This document shows, one piece after another, positions 8,491-42,168 of a stretch of DNA of 42,587 nt. Each line of letters begins with the position of its first letter. Within the stretch, counting starts at the first letter, position 1. Source of the DNA: Omnitrophica bacterium GWA2_41_15 (lineage in GTDB: Bacteria > Omnitrophota > Gorgyraeia > Gygaellales > Profunditerraquicolaceae); NCBI GenBank assembly GCA_919902445.1, contig CAKKQZ010000042.1, positions 6,307-48,893 on the forward strand, in the 5' to 3' direction. Made by a program: the position numbers and the translations under genes. A model generated the notes under the pieces. That model was not told where the DNA came from. It was given only the letters and a program-made list of their open reading frames with translations, and did no database searches.

Positions 8491-8519
8491 ATGTTTCTCC
8501 TTTGTTAGATTTTTTTTAA

Positions 8520-8591
8520 GCGGGAGACGGGATTCGAACCCGCGACATTAACCTTGGCAAGGTTACGCTCTACCAACTGAGCCACTCCCGC
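8520..8591 (-). tRNA. tRNA-Gly(GCC)
   Basis: GCGGGAG...CTCCCGC acceptor; TAACC-TTGCCAA-GGTTA anticodon arm; GGTTCGAATCC T-arm. Confidence 0.95.
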
Positions 8592-8614
8592 ATAATTTCT
8601 GTCCGCGTAAATGG

Positions 8615-8696
8615 TGCGGACGGAGGGATTTGAACCCCCAAGGGTTTCCCCAATAGCTCCTAAGGCTACCGCGTCTGCCAGTTCCGCCACGTCCGC
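8615..8696 (-). tRNA. tRNA-Leu(TAG)
   Basis: GCGGACG...CGTCCGC acceptor; GTAGC-CTTAGGA-GCTAT anticodon arm; long variable arm; GGTTCAAATCC. Confidence 0.93.
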
Positions 8697-8699
8697 CTG

Positions 8700-8888
8700 C
8701 TAGCCCTCTTTTTCCCACGCCCTTTTAGAATTCTCGTTTAGTTTGAGAAATAACAAAATTTCGTGAGCCTCCCGAGCCTCTACCGCTGCGCCAATTAATT
8801 CCGCAAGCGGGATTCCCGCCTTAACACCAAAATTACATAGAGGGAGAACTCGGCTTGATTTCGAGTTCTCGCTCGGTGTTATAATTAG
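8700..8888 (-). other. Structured tRNA-flanking element (nested inverted repeats, tRNA-like fragments; weak ORF)
   Basis: Minus strand: TAACACC...GGTGTTA enclosing GAGAACTCG...CGAGTTCTC; GCGGGAATCCCGC; TGGCGCAGCGGTAGAGGC resembles a D-arm; CTCGGGAGGCTCAC duplicates the tRNA-Lys 3' end. Confidence 0.55.
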
Positions 8889-8961
8889 TGAGCCTCCCGA
8901 GACTCGAACTCGGCACACGCGGCTTAAAAAGCCGCTGCTCTACCAGATGAGCTAGAGGCCC
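8889..8961 (-). tRNA. tRNA-Lys(TTT)
   Basis: GGGCCTC...GAGGCTC acceptor; GCGGC-TTTTTAA-GCCGC anticodon arm; GAGTTCGAGTCTC T-arm. Confidence 0.94.
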
Positions 8962-32753: not shown

Positions 32754-34256
32754 TTAAATATCAAAATAAAGATAGAACTCATACGGATGCGGCCGCATCC
32801 TTACAGCATCTATCTCTTTTTTGCGCTTATACTCAAGCCAGATATCGATTACGTCCTTGGTGAACACTCCGCCTTTTAAGAGGTAATCCTGGTCCGCTTC
32901 AAGGGCATCTACTGCGCGGCGCAAAGACGAAGGAACTGTGGGTATCTTGCTTAGCTCCTCTTCGCTTAAATCAAAGAGGTCTTTATCCATTGGTTCGCCG
33001 GGATTGATTTTGTTCACTATACCGTCGAGCCCCGCCATTAACATGGCGCTGAATGCAAGGTAACCGTTACAAGCCGGGTCCGGCGGCCGGAATTCTATTC
33101 TCTTTGATTTCGGGCTATCCGAATACATCGGTATCCTTACTGCAGCGGAGCGGTTCCTTGCCGAGTAAACTAAGTTTACCGGCGCCTCATATCCGGGAAC
33201 CAGCCTCTTGTATGAATTTGTTGTGGGCGCGCAGAAAGCCATTAAGCTGTTGGCGTGCTTAAGCAGGCCTCCGATGTAATATTTTGCTGTCTGGCTCAAA
33301 AGCGCATAACCGTTCTTGTCATAAAATAAGTTTACGCCGTTCTTCCACAGGCTCTGGTGGCAGTGCATTCCTGAACCATTATCTGCAAAAAGCGGCTTTG
33401 GCATAAATGTTGCGACCATTCCGTACTTTTTAGCCATATTCTTGATGATATACTTATAAAGCAATAAATTGTCTCCCATCTTGGTGAGTCTATCAAACTT
33501 CATATCGATTTCGCACTGGCCCGCTGTTGCAACTTCATGGTGATGCACTTCCACGTTAATCCCCGCTTCCTTCATCTTCAGGATTATCCTGCTCCTTAAA
33601 TCCTGGAGTGAGTCATGCGGAGGAACAGGGAAATAACCCTCCTTGAATCGTATTTTATATCCGAGGTTGGGATTCTCATCACGGCCGGTATTCCAATCTG
33701 CTTCATCAGAATCAATAAAGTAATACCCGGAGTTTTCAGTCTGGTCGAAACGGATGCTGTTAAAAATAAAGAACTCTGCTTCAGGGCCGAAGAATACGCT
33801 GTCAGCTATCCCTGTACTTTTTAAGTATTTTTCTGCCTTTTTTGCAATATAGCGTGGATCGCGGCTATAAGGTTTTCTTGAGAGCGGATCGTAAATATCG
33901 CAGATGAGGCTTAAGGTGGGGACTTCGCAAACCGGGTCCACTATGGCAGTTGACGGGTCGGGGATTAAAATCATATCCGACTCCTGGATCTTCTGAAAAC
34001 CTCGGATAGATGAACCGTCAAACCCGATGCCGTCAACCCATATAGAGCGGGTGATGTCATCCATCTCCAGTAATTCTGATGCGGGAATAGAAAAATGCTG
34101 CCATAGCCCCGGCAGGTCATTGAATTTTAAATCAATAATCTGGATATTTTTCTCTTTGACAAACTTCAGGACATCCCGTGCCGCTTTTTCGTCAAAAGCT
34201 CCGTTCTTTAGCGGATTGGATGTTTTTACTTCAGCCGCTATTTTTTTCTTGGGCAT
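32754..34256 (-). CDS. glnA: Glutamine synthetase type I
   Basis: [91 protein letters not shown]. Confidence 0.97.
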
Positions 34257-34272
34257 TTTTACTCCTCCTTTT

Positions 34273-34349
34273 TAGGGACGTTTCTTAACTCAGCTATAAA
34301 GTGTCCCCGTAGCGGGGACACTTTATATTCAACTTGAGAAACGTCCCTA
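34273..34349 (-). repeat. GGGACG 77-bp palindromic repeat, copy C (orientation 2)
   Basis: Core TATAAAGTGTCCCCG-TAG-CGGGGACACTTTATA is a perfect 15-bp inverted repeat. Confidence 0.95.
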
Positions 34350-34359
34350 AATTAGTTAA

Positions 34360-34701
34360 TTAAATCGCAATCTCTCCTTTTTCACCGGTGCGTATCCTGA
34401 TGGCGTTCTCGATGTTTGAAATAAAAATCTTGCCGTCACCGATTTCACCGGTCTTGACATTATCGATGATAGTTTTGGTTATCCGCTCAACATCAGTATC
34501 TTTTACTACAATCTCAATCTTTAACTTCGGCAGAATCTCTACTCGGTATTTCTCCCCGCGCCACTGCTGCACCACGCCTTTTTGCTTGCCGTGACCCTCG
34601 ATCTCGCTGATCATCAACCCTCCGCATCCGGCTTTTTCTAAGGCGCTGCGTACTGCGTCTAATTTTTCCGGCCGGATAATCGCCTCAATTCTTTTCATCA
34701 T
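34360..34701 (-). CDS. glnB: PII nitrogen regulatory protein (paralog 1)
   Basis: MKRIEAIIRPEKLDAVRSAL; GDGKIFISNIENAIRIRTGEKGEIAI. Confidence 0.96.
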   Translation of the reverse strand: MMKRIEAIIRPEKLDAVRSALEKAGCGGLMISEIEGHGKQKGVVQQWRGEKYRVEILPKLKIEIVVKDTDVERITKTIIDNVKTGEIGDGKIFISNIENAIRIRTGEKGEIAI

Positions 34702-34727
34702 CCCCTCCGCTTTATAAAATTATAATC

Positions 34728-36053
34728 TTATTCCTCTTCCTTAGCTCCTAAAAAGGAGTATGCTGGTTTTCTGCTTAAAAATTCAGGGTAAGCGGCATTA
34801 CCGTGTTCGCCGATATCCAGGCCCTCGATCTCCTCCTGCAAGGACACCCTGATACCAATAGTGGCTTTAAGAATAGCCCAGGCAGCCAGCGAAAGAATAA
34901 AGGTGTATGCCGCAACGCTAACTACACCCGTAAGTTGCGCCATAAACAATTTGCTTCCGCCACCAAAAAATACGCCGTTACCGGTAGCCACGCCTGCGAT
35001 TTTATCCTGCGCGAATAGCCCTACACAAAGCGTGCCAAAAACACCGTTGACTAAATGCACTGACAGGGCTCCGACAGGGTCATCAATCTTTATCCGGTCA
35101 AACATAATTACTGCTAAAACAACCAATGCCCCGGCAATCAAACCAATGATGATAGAGCTCGTTACGCTGACAAAGGCGCAAGGCGCGGTAATTGCCACCA
35201 GTCCTGCCAGGCAGCCATTTAAGGTCATACCTAAGTCGGGCTTTCCTAATAAAATCCAGGAAAGGATAGTTGCGCTCATAATAGCTGCCGCAGCTGCCAT
35301 ATTTGTGGTAATGGCTACGTGGCTGATAGCCATAGGGTCTGCGTTCATAGTTGAACCGGGATTAAACCCAAACCAGCCAAACCATAAGACAAAGGTGCCC
35401 AGAGTTGCTAAAGACAGATTGTGCCCGGGAATAGGATTAATCTTTCCGTTGGTATATTTGCCAAAACGCGGGCCCAAAAGCAATACGCCAGCTAAAGCAG
35501 CCCACCCCCCCACAGAGTGCACTACTGTAGAACCGGCAAAGTCAAACATCCCTTTTGTTGCCAGCCACCCGCCACCCCATATCCAGTGCCCGACAATAGG
35601 GTAAATTACCATAGTCATGATGAAAGAAAAAAGAATAAAGGATTTGTACTTTATTCTTTCGGCAACTGAGCCGGAAACAATCGTGGCTGCAGTCCCGCAG
35701 AAGACTAACTGGAAGAAAAACTTTGCCCACATAGGAACGCCTGTCCAGCTTATTGCGGAATAAACGCCTTTATAAGCTGCGCCAACTGCCGGTGAATTAT
35801 CCAGGCCGCTGGCAAAAAATAACCCCTTTAAACCCATAAAAGGATTGCCATCGCCAAACATCAGGCCCCAGCCCAACAACAAAAAACCTAAAGAGGAAAC
35901 TGCGAATACGATGAAATTCTTAGAAAGGATATTCACGCAGTTCTTTGAGCGGGCAAAGCCAGACTCTACCATTGCGAACCCTAAGTTCATAAAAAATACC
36001 ATCTTTGCCGTTATCAAAACCCAGATAGTATCAATCACAACCTTCATATCCAT
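34728..36053 (-). CDS. amt: Ammonium transporter (paralog 1)
   Basis: NLGFAMVESGFARSKNCVNIL, DFAGSTVVHSVGGWAALAGVLLLGPR, FGWFGFNPGSTMN, EIEGLDIGEHGNAAYPEF C-terminal motif. Confidence 0.96.
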   Translation of the reverse strand: MDMKVVIDTIWVLITAKMVFFMNLGFAMVESGFARSKNCVNILSKNFIVFAVSSLGFLLLGWGLMFGDGNPFMGLKGLFFASGLDNSPAVGAAYKGVYSAISWTGVPMWAKFFFQLVFCGTAATIVSGSVAERIKYKSFILFSFIMTMVIYPIVGHWIWGGGWLATKGMFDFAGSTVVHSVGGWAALAGVLLLGPRFGKYTNGKINPIPGHNLSLATLGTFVLWFGWFGFNPGSTMNADPMAISHVAITTNMAAAAAIMSATILSWILLGKPDLGMTLNGCLAGLVAITAPCAFVSVTSSIIIGLIAGALVVLAVIMFDRIKIDDPVGALSVHLVNGVFGTLCVGLFAQDKIAGVATGNGVFFGGGSKLFMAQLTGVVSVAAYTFILSLAAWAILKATIGIRVSLQEEIEGLDIGEHGNAAYPEFLSRKPAYSFLGAKEEE

Positions 36054-36153
36054 TTTTTATCCCCGTCCTTTCCTGTTGCATTTACTCACTTGTTTATTCA
36101 ATTGAGAGGTTTGAAGCAAGAAAATTTTCCCTTTTTTAAGTTACCCTCCTTTC

Positions 36154-36192
36154 TCAATTCGCTCGCTCCTCTTGACCTTGCAAGCGAATTGA
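36154..36192 (-). repeat. Hairpin TCAATTCGCT...AGCGAATTGA in the amt-1 leader
   Basis: Perfect 10-bp arms (36154-36163 / 36183-36192), 19-nt loop. Confidence 0.65.
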
Positions 36193-36241
36193 TCCTCCAG
36201 CCCAGCTGTTGGCGGGGCGAAGGACCTACCTCTATTATTTT

Positions 36242-36418
36242 TTATATGCCTAAGCGCTCCTTGACCAACCTGGCATATATCCTATTAATGTGCGAAGTCT
36301 TCAGCCATCTTTGTAAAGTAGAAATCGGAATATCTAAAATTCTTGATAAGTCATAGAGGGTGTAACCCTTCTGTACTTTCAGGTTCTTAATTTTCTGGAC
36401 CAAATCTCTATCTATCAT
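36242..36418 (-). CDS. Small HTH-type DNA-binding protein (58 aa; absent from supplied ORF track)
   Basis: MIDRDLVQKIKNLKVQKGYTLYDLSRILDIPISTLQRWLKTSHINRIYARLVKERLGI*; helix-turn-helix pattern YTLYDLSRILDIPISTLQRWLK. Confidence 0.75.
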   Translation of the reverse strand: MIDRDLVQKIKNLKVQKGYTLYDLSRILDIPISTLQRWLKTSHINRIYARLVKERLGI

Positions 36419-36423
36419 TTTCT

Positions 36424-36499
36424 TAGGGACGTTTCTTAACTCAGCTATAAGGTGTCCCCGCCTTAGGGACAGTTTATATTCAACTTAAGAAACGTCCCT
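36424..36499 (-). repeat. GGGACG palindromic repeat, copy D (orientation 2)
   Basis: TAGGGACGTTTCTTAACTCAGCTATAAGGTGTCCCC...GGGACAGTTTATATTCAACTTAAGAAACGTCCCT. Confidence 0.94.
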
Positions 36500-36505
36500 G
36501 ACTGA

Positions 36506-36844
36506 TTAAACTGCTGCCTCGCCTTTTTCACCTGTGCGTATCCTGAATACATCCTCTACCGGGTAAACAAAAATCTTTCCGTCGCCTATTTTATCCGTGC
36601 GCGCTTTATCCATAATCACCTTTACAATACGCCCTACATCCGCATCCTTTACTATCGTTTCTATTTTAACCTTTTGCAGAAGTTCTACTTTATATTTCTT
36701 GCCTCGCCATTGCTGCACCAACCCCTTTTGTTTCCCGTGGCCTTCGACCTCGGTCACGGTTATGCCGGGGCAGTCGATTTCTCCGAGAGCAGCCCGCACC
36801 TCGTTGAGTTTTTCAGGACGAATTATCGCTTCTATCTTTTTCAT
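36506..36844 (-). CDS. glnB: PII nitrogen regulatory protein (paralog 2)
   Basis: MKKIEAIIRPEKLNEVRAAL; GDGKIFVYPVEDVFRIRTGEKGEAAV. Confidence 0.96.
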   Translation of the reverse strand: MKKIEAIIRPEKLNEVRAALGEIDCPGITVTEVEGHGKQKGLVQQWRGKKYKVELLQKVKIETIVKDADVGRIVKVIMDKARTDKIGDGKIFVYPVEDVFRIRTGEKGEAAV

Positions 36845-36874
36845 TTTGGGGTTCCTCCATTTTAAAAAATAGTT

Positions 36875-38458
36875 TTAAGAAAATAATTCTTTGGAAATAG
36901 GAGTTTCTGAATGTTTATCTAACTTTACTCCGCTATAACCCGTCACCCCCATTTCAGGGATATCCAAACCGTCTATCTCAGCTTCCGGTTCTGTACGGTT
37001 GCCTACAGTAACCTCAAGGAATTTAAAGATTATAAACGTAATCGACCCCACGTAGATGATATTTGAAAGCACCCCGGTACACTGAGCGAATAATTGCGAA
37101 GAGTCTCCATAGAATAACCCCCTAACAGCCCCAGCGACCCCGTTCCATCCATCTCCGTATGTCCCGTCGGCAAAAAGCCCTAATGCCAGGCAACCCCAGG
37201 CTCCGTTTACTCCGTGCACCGATATAGCGCCAACAGGATCATCTATTTTAAGTTTGCCTTCCACAAAATAAACCGATTCGACTACAAGTACTCCGGCTAT
37301 AAGGCCTATTATACAAGCGCTGATAGAATTTACAAATGCGCAGGGCGCGGTAATTGCCACAAGGCCAGCCAACATTCCGTTACACATCATGCTCGGGTCG
37401 GGTTTTTTAGTGCGCACCGCCCACATCCATATAGTTGCTGCTATTGCCCCTGTGGCTGAAGCTAACATAGTGTTAACAGCCACAACTGCTATGCGTAAAT
37501 CCGTGCCTGCTAAAGTTGAGCCGGCATTAAAACCAAACCATCCGAAAGCCAGGATAAATGTTCCTATAACTGCCATGGGAATACTATGCCCGGGAATAGG
37601 ATTAGCGCTTCCGTCGCGATTAAACTTTCCCAGGCGAGGGCCCACAATCCAGGCAGCTACCAAAGCAATCACTCCTCCGGTCATATGCACAACTGAAGAG
37701 CCGGCAAAATCAACATGGCCGTGCCCTAAACCGAAATTCTGGCCCAGCATTGCCAGCCACCCTCCTCCCCACACCCAGTTTCCGAAGATAGGATAGATTA
37801 TTGTCCCCACAAAAATTCCGTAAATACAGAAGGAGAGAAATTTCCAGCGCTCTGCCAGGGCGCCTGTGGGGATAGTGGCGGTGGTATCCATAAACACCAT
37901 CTGGAATAGAAATAATGTAAAAACAGCGACATCGTAGGAAGAGCCGTTAAGGAAAAAACCATTTAGCCCAAACAAGCCAAAAGATTTCCCGAATAAATTA
38001 ATTGTAAATTCATTATTTAATCCAGCATAACCACCCAAAGTGCCAAGGGCGCCTATACCGCCGAACATAAGCGCAAAACCGCAAACATAAAAACCAAGCA
38101 TGCCTAAAGGATAAATCAAAAAATTCATTCCCATAGTATGCGCAGCATTCTTAGCGCGGGTCATGCCTGTCTCTACCATAGCAAAGCCCGGCTGCATGAA
38201 CATAACTAAAAATCCGGCGATAAGCGTCCAGACAAAGTTAATTGCAACTCTGTTATGCCCTGCGGCCTGCGCCACCTCTTCAAGAGTAGGCTTTCCGGCT
38301 GCAGCTGCAGTAACATCGTTTATCGTGCCGGTGCTTGCTCCGCTTGGGTCAGGGCCTGCTGCAAAAATAGAAACAACTGATAAAGCAGAAAATATAATGG
38401 CCATGGATAAAATTACTAATCCGTGCTTCCTAAAAAAGTTTCTTAATCCTTGCTTCAT
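36875..38458 (-). CDS. amt: Ammonium transporter (paralog 2, with N-terminal signal-like extension)
   Basis: QPGFAMVETGMTRAKNAAHTMGMN, DFAGSSVVHMTGGVIALVAAWIVGPRLG, FGWFGFNAGSTLAG, EIDGLDIPEMGVTGY. Confidence 0.96.
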   Translation of the reverse strand: MKQGLRNFFRKHGLVILSMAIIFSALSVVSIFAAGPDPSGASTGTINDVTAAAAGKPTLEEVAQAAGHNRVAINFVWTLIAGFLVMFMQPGFAMVETGMTRAKNAAHTMGMNFLIYPLGMLGFYVCGFALMFGGIGALGTLGGYAGLNNEFTINLFGKSFGLFGLNGFFLNGSSYDVAVFTLFLFQMVFMDTTATIPTGALAERWKFLSFCIYGIFVGTIIYPIFGNWVWGGGWLAMLGQNFGLGHGHVDFAGSSVVHMTGGVIALVAAWIVGPRLGKFNRDGSANPIPGHSIPMAVIGTFILAFGWFGFNAGSTLAGTDLRIAVVAVNTMLASATGAIAATIWMWAVRTKKPDPSMMCNGMLAGLVAITAPCAFVNSISACIIGLIAGVLVVESVYFVEGKLKIDDPVGAISVHGVNGAWGCLALGLFADGTYGDGWNGVAGAVRGLFYGDSSQLFAQCTGVLSNIIYVGSITFIIFKFLEVTVGNRTEPEAEIDGLDIPEMGVTGYSGVKLDKHSETPISKELFS

Positions 38459-38474
38459 CTCTATCTCCTTTCAT

Positions 38475-38551
38475 TAGGGACGTTTCTTAAGTTAGCTATA
38501 AGGTGTCCCCACCATGGGGACATCTTATATTCAGGTTAAGAAACGTCCCTA
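38475..38551 (-). repeat. GGGACG 77-bp palindromic repeat, copy E (orientation 2)
   Basis: TAGGGACGTTTCTTAAGTTAGCTATAAGGTGTCCCC...GGGGACATCTTATATTCAGGTTAAGAAACGTCCCTA. Confidence 0.95.
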
Positions 38552-38553
38552 CT

Positions 38554-39849
38554 TTAAAACGAATAAATTGCCTCTAATCCTATGGTATCCTGCCTACCAA
38601 CCGCTTTCTGATTATTAATAAATATGTCCGAGCTTGACTCATCGTGCCTGTATTCAAGGCGAGTGATTAAATCTTTATAGGGACGCAGTTCTAAGGTTAA
38701 AGTTTGCTCCCAAACATCCTGGTTTGTCCCGCTCACAATCCTTAAACCCTGCCTATCGCTCATAAATTCTGTTCGGCTGATTAAACTCATCCAGCTGTTA
38801 GTATCATACCTTAAATAACCCGCCACCCCTGACCAGGCGCCGTCTTTACCAGCAGCCACCACATCCTCTTCATGGCCATAGTCAGCATTTAACATCAGGG
38901 TCCATTTATCAAATGGTTTATAAGTAGTTAGAAAATCAATAAGTCCCCGTTGAGAGTGGTCATTAGAAGCCTGCTCAGGCCCATACATACCTGCAAGGTT
39001 AAATGACAGCTTATCACTTGCTGCCCAGGCAAGAGCCCCTTCCACTGATTTGGTCTTATTATTATCCTTAACATTATCCCAGCCATTATTTATACCTAAA
39101 TAACCGCTTAGACCGTCAAAAATTTGATAACCTGCGCGGATGCCCGTATGGGTAAAGGGTATGGCATAGCCAAAAAGGAGCGAACGGGTAAAATTCCAGT
39201 TATCCTTGGCCTCAATTACCTCTGCTCCGTGCATAGTCACGAATTTGCCGATTTTAATCCACTGCCAATTCCCAAAAGGAAGATTAAAGTTAAGTGGCGG
39301 CTTAAGGCTGATATAGGCCTGCTCTAAATCAAATTGGTCACGAGTTGAGCCTGCAGGCGTAATCACCTCTGCGTCCTGGCCAAAATAAAGGTCGGTGCGA
39401 AAACCCGCCCCTCCACTATCAGGCGGAAGTTTCTCAAATACCAATTCTGCTGCCTGAAGGTTAAAGTTATTCGCTTCGGTATCAAAAACCCTGGCAGTGT
39501 TTGTCCGCGAATCAGGGCCCCTAAAATTATAGGTATAGCTTGTATCCACAAAACCGCTTAAGGAGATATCTTTTAACGCCTTAACCAACCCGCCTTCAAT
39601 TGATTCTCTTTTTGCTAACAAATCATCCACCTTCTTCTGGATGACCTCATCCGGAATGGTCTCCGCTGGGCTCTTTTCGTAAATACTCAATTTCTTATTT
39701 AAGGCCTCGACCTTACTTTCCAGACCATCAACCCTCTTTATTAATTTTTCTATCAATTCATCTTTCCCATCGGCAAAAGCAGATACAGAATATAGCATGA
39801 TAAAATAAATAAAACTAATCGCCACTATCCCTCTTTGATACATTTTCAT
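38554..39849 (-). CDS. Outer-membrane beta-barrel porin (BBP2/OmpL-like)
   Basis: Signal peptide, coiled-coil N-terminal segment (VDGLESKVEALNKKL), alternating amphipathic strands, C-terminal aromatic ...IGLEAIYSF. Confidence 0.8.
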   Translation of the reverse strand: MKMYQRGIVAISFIYFIMLYSVSAFADGKDELIEKLIKRVDGLESKVEALNKKLSIYEKSPAETIPDEVIQKKVDDLLAKRESIEGGLVKALKDISLSGFVDTSYTYNFRGPDSRTNTARVFDTEANNFNLQAAELVFEKLPPDSGGAGFRTDLYFGQDAEVITPAGSTRDQFDLEQAYISLKPPLNFNLPFGNWQWIKIGKFVTMHGAEVIEAKDNWNFTRSLLFGYAIPFTHTGIRAGYQIFDGLSGYLGINNGWDNVKDNNKTKSVEGALAWAASDKLSFNLAGMYGPEQASNDHSQRGLIDFLTTYKPFDKWTLMLNADYGHEEDVVAAGKDGAWSGVAGYLRYDTNSWMSLISRTEFMSDRQGLRIVSGTNQDVWEQTLTLELRPYKDLITRLEYRHDESSSDIFINNQKAVGRQDTIGLEAIYSF

Positions 39850-39877
39850 AATTCCCCCTTTCTTTTACAGAATTGCT

Positions 39878-41206
39878 TTACGTACATAATCTCTCAACGC
39901 TCAACATCTCATCAATATCTTCTTCTGGGTCTCCTATAAGTTTTATACCATAACGGCTTGCGAGAACCTCAAGAATGCCGTCATTTACCCATGCAGGCGG
40001 AACTGGCCCCAGATATATGTTCTTAATACCCAGCGCAATAAGGCTCCATAGGATGGCAATAGCATCTTGGTTCATCCAACACAAAACCAACGTAAGTGGC
40101 AACTCTTTTGCCGGTATGCCTAAGGCTTCCGTAAGGGAAGTAGCGATGTCCAGGGCAACTATGGCATCATTACATTGCCCCAAATCTATAAGCCTGGGGA
40201 TTCCCTCTATTTCTCCAATGTCCAAATCGTTGAACCTAAATTTTCCGCATCCCAAAGTAAGGATAACCGTATCTTTCGGTAAGAGTTGGACAAAATCACG
40301 GTAATACTCCATCTTCCCTGTGGGAGAGTCACATCCTCCGACGAGGAAAAAATGGCGAATTTTCCCTTTTACCACCAACTCCTTTATTTTATCCTTTAAA
40401 GATAGAACAGCTGACCTAGAGTACCCCGTAGTTAATATAGCCTCACTCGGCTTCTCTTCGAGCTCTGGCAGCGATTTCGCTTTTTCTATAACAGGCGTAT
40501 AATCATATCCATTTATATGCTTGATACCCGGAAGCCTTACAGGCCCGGTGGTAAAGAGCCTATCTTTATATTCTTCTTTTGGGATAAGGACACAGTTCGA
40601 TGTGCCCAATATTGCCATAGGATATTCTGTAAATAATCTTCTCTGGTCATGCCATGATTTACCAAGGTTTCCCACCAGATGCTTATATTTTTTAAACTCG
40701 GGGTAGGCGTGTGCAGGCAGCATCTCCGAGTGGGTGTAAACATTTATTCCTGTACCCTGTGTTTGCTTGAGCAACTCTTCCAGCACCTTTAACCCATGTC
40801 CGGTGACAATGATACCTCTGCCTTTCCTTATGCCTGTTTCTACCTTTGTAGGCTCCGGCTCACCGTATCTTTCAATATAAGCCACCTTCAAAAGCCTCAT
40901 ACCTTTTAGGTTCATCCTCCCGGATTCAACGGCTAGTTCCAGGAAGCTTTCCGCATCAAAATTGACGTTAGTAAACATGGAATAAAAAGCCCTACTGATA
41001 AAATCATCTATCTCAGGCAAGGGCGGGGCAAAACCCAGCCTCCTTGCGCGATACAGATAGCCGGACATCCCCTGGATTGAATAGATGAGGTTATCCTGGA
41101 GCCGGGCAAGTGTAGGGTTTTTACCGCATATCCCTATGACATCGCAGCCTATCCCTCTTGCTGCCTGCGAACATTGATAACAAAACATTCTCTCTTCTTT
41201 TTCCAT
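39878..41206 (-). CDS. hcp: Hydroxylamine reductase / hybrid-cluster protein, short form (start may be internal Met7)
   Basis: [24 protein letters not shown]-terminal Cys cluster; [53 protein letters not shown]. Confidence 0.92.
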
Positions 41207-41221
41207 TTCTTAGAAAATAAA

Positions 41222-41251
41222 AAAGGCGTTCTTTTATTAGAAGAACGCCTT
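41222..41251 (-). terminator. Terminator-like hairpin directly upstream of hcp (candidate attenuator)
   Basis: Minus: AAAGGCGTTCTTCTAATAAAAGAACGCCTTTTTTATTTT; preceded by hairpin GCGCATGGATGCGC (41261-41274). Confidence 0.75.
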
Positions 41252-41325
41252 TGTTTTATGGCGCATCCATGCGCTTTACACTGATACAAGTAAAAAAACA
41301 CCTGCCCTGGTAACCTTTTTTTAGT

Positions 41326-41402
41326 TAGGGACGTTTCTCAAGTTGAATATAAAGTGTCCCCGCTACGGGGACACTTTATAGCTGAGTTAAGAAACGTCCC
41401 TA
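41326..41402 (+). repeat. GGGACG palindromic repeat, copy F (orientation 1)
   Basis: 76 bp (41327-41402) identical to copy G; its terminal CTA supplies the TAG stop of the sigma-like gene. Confidence 0.97.
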
Positions 41403-41951
41403 TTTTTCCAAATATTTCTTACACTTGCCCCTGATCCTTGATATTAATTTTACTACCATTACGTGGGAAACGCCGAGCCGCTTACCTATAGCTCTTGTAG
41501 TCAAACCCTCTGCGCAAAAAATCAGGACTGCTTTTTCTCTTTTGGTAAATCCGTTATTATGTATGGCGTCAGCAAGTAATTTATCATTTAAATAATCAAA
41601 ATAATATTTCGAACGCTCATCCTGCAACCACAGGGTATCTTTCAGGCTTAATCCCTCTTCATCCCCGGCTGCAACCTCAAGGCTGACTAACGGCGTTCTT
41701 AACTTTTGCATACGGATGTAATTCTTCAGGTGAAAGTAGCACCCCTGCAGGATATAACTATCAGTCTTATCATCCAGGGTTCCATCACGGAAATCCTGCC
41801 ATAAATTAATCAACGCCTCTTGAAAAAGGTCTTCATCGTTAAAAAACGTGAAGCGCCCGTTAAGTTTGTGGGTTATACCTTTTAATTTTGGAGTTAATTT
41901 TTTTACCAGCTCTTCAAAGGTCATCTTGGCATTCCCAGGGACGTTTCTCAA
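41400..41951 (-). CDS. Sigma-70-family (ECF-like) RNA polymerase sigma factor / HTH protein; ATG at 41924 is the likely start
   Basis: FNDEDLFQEALINLWQDFRDG region 2-like; FTKREKAVLIFCAEGLTTRAIGKRLGVSHVMVVKLISRIRGK region 4-like HTH. Confidence 0.75.
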   Translation of the reverse strand: MRNVPGNAKMTFEELVKKLTPKLKGITHKLNGRFTFFNDEDLFQEALINLWQDFRDGTLDDKTDSYILQGCYFHLKNYIRMQKLRTPLVSLEVAAGDEEGLSLKDTLWLQDERSKYYFDYLNDKLLADAIHNNGFTKREKAVLIFCAEGLTTRAIGKRLGVSHVMVVKLISRIRGKCKKYLEK

Positions 41952-42012
41952 GTTGAATATAAAGTGTCCCCGCTACGGGGACACTTTATAGCTGAGTTAA
42001 GAAACGTCCCTA
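41937..42012 (+). repeat. GGGACG palindromic repeat, copy G (orientation 1)
   Basis: Identical 76 bp to copy F, direct orientation; core TATAAAGTGTCCCCG-CTA-CGGGGACACTTTATA. Confidence 0.97.
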
Positions 42013-42020
42013 ACACTAAT

Positions 42021-42134
42021 AAAAAAGGCGGCCTCATCCTTTGTAAATCGGATTTGGACGCCTTAGTCCTATAAAACAAAATGCCTTCTCCAGCTACCCA
42101 TCGCCAAAGAAGACATCTTTGTCTTGCTACCTAC
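42021..42134 (-). ncRNA. Candidate structured sRNA or leader RNA (~110 nt) with its own promoter and terminator
   Basis: Promoter TTGACA-N16-TACACT (42168-42141); overlapping hairpins AAGAC-AAAGAT-GTCTT and CAAAGA-TGTCT-TCTTTG; terminator AAGGCG...CGCCTTTTTTATT. Confidence 0.55.
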
Positions 42135-42140
42135 AGATAA

Positions 42141-42168
42141 AGTGTAACATAAAACCGAAGCTTGTCAA
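42141..42168 (-). promoter_or_regulatory. Sigma70-type promoter for the candidate sRNA/leader
   Basis: Minus strand TTGACA-N16-TACACT. Confidence 0.65.

Follow-up and report, generated by a model that had tools for sequence, protein, structure and literature searches.

RNAs targeted by ANTAR proteins are defined by two hairpins whose hexaloops carry A at position 1 (A1) and G at position 4 (G4), with the second hairpin overlapping a terminator (PMC3369931). In the structure of EutV bound to RNA, G4 makes the only base-specific contact and A1 has no specific contact (PMC8934654). The same study showed that a EutV dimer binds a single hexaloop and proposed that the protein is handed over from a recruitment hairpin to an antitermination hairpin; lengthening the linker between them by 20 nt abolished EutV antitermination (PMC8934654).

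We analysed a window of 42,587 nt from the genome of Omnitrophica bacterium GWA2_41_15. On its minus strand, from 42168 to 42021, a promoter is followed by a folded leader of about 115 nt and a terminator. An earlier note, made from the sequence alone, took this RNA for either a free small RNA or an attenuating leader or riboswitch of the sigma gene downstream. Our results support the attenuating leader, but neither the free small RNA nor the ligand riboswitch. In our reading, which we hold with high confidence, leader 1 is a transcription-antitermination leader of the ANTAR type, in which a GAF-ANTAR protein would relieve a terminator, T1, and then a second one, T2, ahead of the sigma gene (Table 1). 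T1, the ANTAR class and the regulator had escaped the earlier note.

Table 1. Features of the two leaders and of the genes that they precede (positions in the window).
Feature	Position	Strand	Remark
Leader-1 promoter, TTGACA-N16-TACACT	42141..42168	-	-35 box and spacer kept in homologues
P2 hexaloop hairpin AAGAC-AAAGAU-GUCUU (A1, G4), antiterminator of T1	42110..42125	-	Conserved
Terminator T1	42072..42117	-	15-pair stem (42117-42080) and U-rich run; 5' arm common to P2
P3 hexaloop hairpin GGAC-UAAGGC-GUCC (U1, G4), antiterminator of T2	42056..42069	-	Present in 40/52 elements
Terminator T2 with T run	42021..42064	-	5' arm common to P3
Copy of dispersed palindromic repeat, between T2 and sigma gene	41937..42013		Outside the leader family
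ECF-type sigma factor gene, 174 aa, proposed target of leader 1	41400..41924	-	TIGR02937
Promoter-like element GTTACC-N15-TTACTTGTA ahead of leader 2	41285..41314	-	May be a promoter read by the neighbouring sigma factor
Leader 2, P1 hexaloop hairpin GCGC-AUGGAU-GCGC (A1, G4)	41261..41274	-	
Leader 2, P2 hexaloop hairpin AAC-AAAGGC-GUU (A1, G4)	41244..41255	-	5 nt after P1
Leader 2, terminator AAAGGCGTTC...GAACGCCTTT with T run	41217..41252	-	Overlaps P2
Proposed leader-2 target operon: hcp, BBP2 porin, amt, glnB, amt, glnB, glnA	32754..41206	-	

The promoter is present as the note had read it, and a TTGACA box with a spacer of 16–17 nt precedes most, if not nearly all, leader-1 homologues. 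The claim of a structured leader ending in an intrinsic terminator also held. The predicted folding energy was -42.3 kcal/mol, as against -27.7 ± 3.25 kcal/mol for dinucleotide shuffles (z -4.5, 0 of 200 shuffles), and the leader ends in T2 (AAGGCGTCC...GGCCGCCTTTTTT), whose T run reaches 42021. Its first part is made up by T1 (GAUGUCUUCUUUGGC...GCUGGAGAAGGCAUU, then a U-rich run). Leader 1 therefore carries two consecutive terminators, and a separate hexaloop hairpin overlaps each: P2 and T1 are mutually exclusive, and so are P3 and T2.

The first of the alternative hairpins proposed earlier, AAGAC/GTCTT, corresponds to P2 and is conserved, but its main competitor is the 15-pair stem of T1 rather than the suggested CAAAGA/TCTTTG. 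The other proposal, that GGAC-TAAGGC-GTCC competes with the terminator arm, was borne out, as this hairpin (P3) is conserved and excludes T2. Left unaided, the leader favours its terminators by about 12 kcal/mol (-41.9 kcal/mol, vs -29.4 kcal/mol when P2 and P3 are forced to form). Read-through thus requires that some factor keep these two hairpins in place.

A first DNA search over 58 genomes found homologues of leader 1; several of its weak matches (e.g. L014) were chance matches. We then ran a covariance model of the P2 and T1 core (R1) on 108 genomes of the same Omnitrophota family and obtained matches in 43, which confirms that the RNA is kept in relatives. Loop statistics were taken from 52 non-redundant elements, whose sequences are related and do not represent independent events. 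Across them, hexaloop positions 1 and 4 hold while the others vary. The P2 loop has A1 in 45/52 and G4 in 48/52 elements, with position 2 nearly free, although R1 was seeded with P2 loops and these counts arise partly by construction. An upstream hairpin with an A1/G4 hexaloop (P1, typically UAC-AnnGnn-GUA) lies almost wholly outside the R1 model; it was found in 31/52 elements, whereas 200 shuffles gave 3.9 ± 1.9 and never more than 8. Where P3 is present, it has G4 in 39 of 40 elements and U at loop position 1 in 32. Position 6 of the P2 loop pairs with the 3' arm of T1 in 48/52 elements, through five pair types (UA, AU, GC, GU and CG), and these covarying pairs support both T1 and its exclusivity with P2.

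The window copy departs from most of its relatives. We found no recognisable P1 in it, the best hexaloop there being CUGUAG, and the -10 box and the P2 core are 17 nt apart, where 25–28 nt is usual. EutV needs P1, so this absence counts against the ANTAR reading, as do the position of P3, about 40 nt from P2, and its U in place of A at loop position 1. Without P1, leader 1 of the window lacks one defining feature of ANTAR targets, though most family members conform to the definition. We therefore call it a variant that would work like an ANTAR target and not a canonical member of the class. A P1-like hexaloop in the apical loop of T1 was considered for the P1-less members and dropped, since inspection by eye showed that the loop is not conserved.

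It is conceivable that the family is of the ANTAR type but that the window copy has decayed to a constitutive double terminator through loss of P1 and insertion of a repeat. The short distance between the -10 box and P2, the absence of P1 both here and in a second genome (G022), and the repeat between T2 and the sigma gene would agree with decay. We nevertheless regard it as unlikely: P2, T1, P3, T2 and the promoter have all been kept, and several genomes (L082, L012, L119 and L120) likewise show a layout without P1, which suggests a working variant. The repeat itself (GGGACGTTTCTTAACTC...GAAACGTCCC) is palindromic, about 77 bp long and present in about 40 copies across the 1.29 Mb draft genome; most of the gaps between genes in the nitrogen operon hold one. 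In another genome (G005), a REP-type transposase-like protein (L044:1806-2498) adjoins the ANTAR gene and may relate to this repeat.

The gene downstream of leader 1 is, judging from its predicted protein, an ECF-type sigma factor gene with the architecture of sigma-70 regions 2 and 4. TIGR02937 scored over its cut-off across residues 3-172, while Pfam Sigma70_r2 and r4 matched only below threshold. A search of the genome contigs with the sigma protein alone gave no match. The proposed control of this gene by the leader is supported by gene order, together with the covariation that backs the exclusivity of antiterminator and terminator: in about 35 homologous loci the sigma gene comes next, 64–160 nt after the element, and is followed by porin, amt or glnB. 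Elsewhere leader-1 elements are followed by nadE, porin, amt, a NuoL/Mrp-like subunit or an H+-pyrophosphatase. The NAD synthetase gene nadE directly follows the leader in three loci (L110, L095 and L079), and the leader core stands ahead of a NuoL/Mrp-like proton-pumping subunit or an H+-pyrophosphatase in six (L083, L085, L093, L077 and L108, L109). In some relatives the regulon may thus reach energy metabolism.

This recurrent gene order bears on the possibility that leader 1, terminated at T1 or T2, is set free as a small RNA and works in trans, for instance as a sponge for the ANTAR protein. EutX of E. faecalis is such a sponge, titrating an ANTAR protein. With a promoter of its own and strong terminators, leader 1 would by default yield short terminated RNAs. 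We consider a purely trans-acting RNA improbable, because the same sigma gene and the other targets lie just downstream, and the antiterminator hairpins would be without purpose. A terminated by-product of leader 1 could still act as a sponge.

The candidate regulator, about 240 aa long, combines GAF and ANTAR domains. The ANTAR domain (PF03861) was found in 96 of the 108 family genomes, and in 17 loci a GAF-ANTAR gene on the same strand lies upstream, with no more than 200 nt between its end and the RNA. In the genome of the window the protein is encoded on another contig (C67; PF03861 E-value 7.3e-17); the window's own contig continues for only about 400 nt upstream of leader 1, so that local linkage is not visible there. 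Three genomes in which no ANTAR domain was found (G019, G104 and G118, 75–89% complete) carry leader-1 RNA, which counts against the ANTAR reading. Four near-complete ANTAR-less genomes of the family (G018, G024, G060 and G070) have neither leader, but they are too few for a test, and the co-occurrence of RNA and ANTAR protein across genomes is only suggestive. A record labelled Planctomycetales (SBBM01000058.1, L151) carries a GAF-ANTAR locus of the Omnitrophota type, and its name is probably wrong.

A riboswitch for a small molecule, or an attenuator served by an RNA-binding antiterminator other than ANTAR, would equally have mutually exclusive terminators and antiterminators, and the lack of P1 in the window copy would suit it. 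We judge this highly improbable. There is no conserved aptamer-like core, conservation falls on the positions that mark ANTAR hexaloops, and an ANTAR gene adjoins the RNA in the loci mentioned above. A search of Rfam at gathering and relaxed thresholds assigned no family to leader 1, none scoring above its gathering threshold. The earlier note, for which an Rfam assignment would have been a refutation, did not recognise the core as a known class, but the core matches a published one, the ANTAR-target hexaloop RNAs.

A second leader, located between the sigma gene and the nitrogen operon, also agrees with ANTAR antitermination. As far as its sequence tells, leader 2 (41217-41274) is a textbook dual-hexaloop ANTAR RNA, with A1 and G4 in both loops, a short linker and P2 over the terminator. 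A model of it (R2) recovered leader 2 in its own genome with an E-value of 1.4e-10, the window copy being within the seed, and matched in 70 of 128 genomes of the order. R2 was built from 15 copies, all of which have G4 in both loops; A1 occurs in 13 of their P1 loops and in 14 of their P2 loops. In a wider set, A1 was present in 26/32 P1 and 29/35 P2 loops; G4 was required by the script, so only A1 is informative there. Searching the window's own genome with R1 and R2 returned only its two leaders. The strict ANTAR pattern ACANNGNNGT-N2..14-ACNNNGNNGT had no match in this genome, because both leaders deviate from it.

The promoter-like element ahead of leader 2 (GTTACC-N15-TTACTTG) has a spacer of exactly 15 nt in all 28 homologous stretches that carry it. 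GTTACC-N8..22-TTACTTGTA occurs only once in the window's genome, so no wider sigma regulon can be defined. Within the operon, between glnB and the second amt, we saw by eye a small helix-turn-helix-like ORF (36244-36416, minus strand). Elsewhere in the window, a cluster of three tRNA genes lies at 8519-8961 on the minus strand.

From these features we infer the following course of events. Polymerase would start at the TTGACA promoter and by default terminate at T1 or T2. Once its GAF domain had sensed a signal, the active GAF-ANTAR protein would bind P2 as it emerges and block T1; in most relatives, recruitment by the upstream P1 would come first. The protein would next engage P3, which fits as a further hand-over site, so that T2 is blocked and polymerase reads into the sigma gene. 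The sigma factor made in this way may then act at the promoter ahead of leader 2, where the same ANTAR protein would have to relieve the attenuator before hcp-porin-amt-glnB-glnA is made. Taken as a whole, this would be a coherent feed-forward loop in Omnitrophota: one GAF-ANTAR protein carries transcription past two terminators by hairpin-to-hairpin hand-over, the sigma factor starts the amt-glnB operon, and the leader of that operon is antiterminated again. We put this complete circuit forward tentatively, as a possibility somewhat short of even. The switch probably controls ammonium-uptake genes in these uncultured bacteria.

These results give a regulator and a likely function to a leader without assignment in an uncultured phylum, and would widen the range of ANTAR antitermination to Omnitrophota, where the sensor would be a GAF domain and the target a sigma factor. 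The natural variants (P1-less leaders, P3 with U1 and G4, serial terminators) test the model in which the ANTAR protein passes from the recruitment to the antitermination hairpin. A non-exhaustive literature search found no account of ANTAR RNAs in Omnitrophota.

Like the eut leaders read by EutV in Enterococcus faecalis (PMC8934654, PMC3369931), those described here have small stems, A1/G4 hexaloops and a P2 over an intrinsic terminator, and most leader-1 relatives as well as leader 2 share the P1 and short linker. Unlike them, leader 1 carries a third hexaloop (U1, G4) and places a second terminator behind the first, its window copy is without P1, and the regulator is a GAF-ANTAR protein and not a response regulator. 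The nitrogen ANTAR regulons predicted in PMC3369931 likewise have leaders ahead of genes for P-II, ammonium transporters and glutamine or glutamate synthases; in the part of that paper considered here, a sigma intermediate, serial terminators and Omnitrophota are not described. In Klebsiella, NasR is also a sensor-fused ANTAR protein that relieves the leader terminator of a nitrogen operon, nasF, but its sensor is NIT and not GAF, and the portions of PMC7496416 and PMC3369931 used here describe one terminator, ahead of the metabolic operon itself. The principle of ANTAR antitermination of nitrogen genes is therefore already known. What appear to be new are the phylum, the wiring of a GAF-ANTAR protein to a sigma factor, the serial layout of three hexaloops and two terminators, and the sigma gene as a target.
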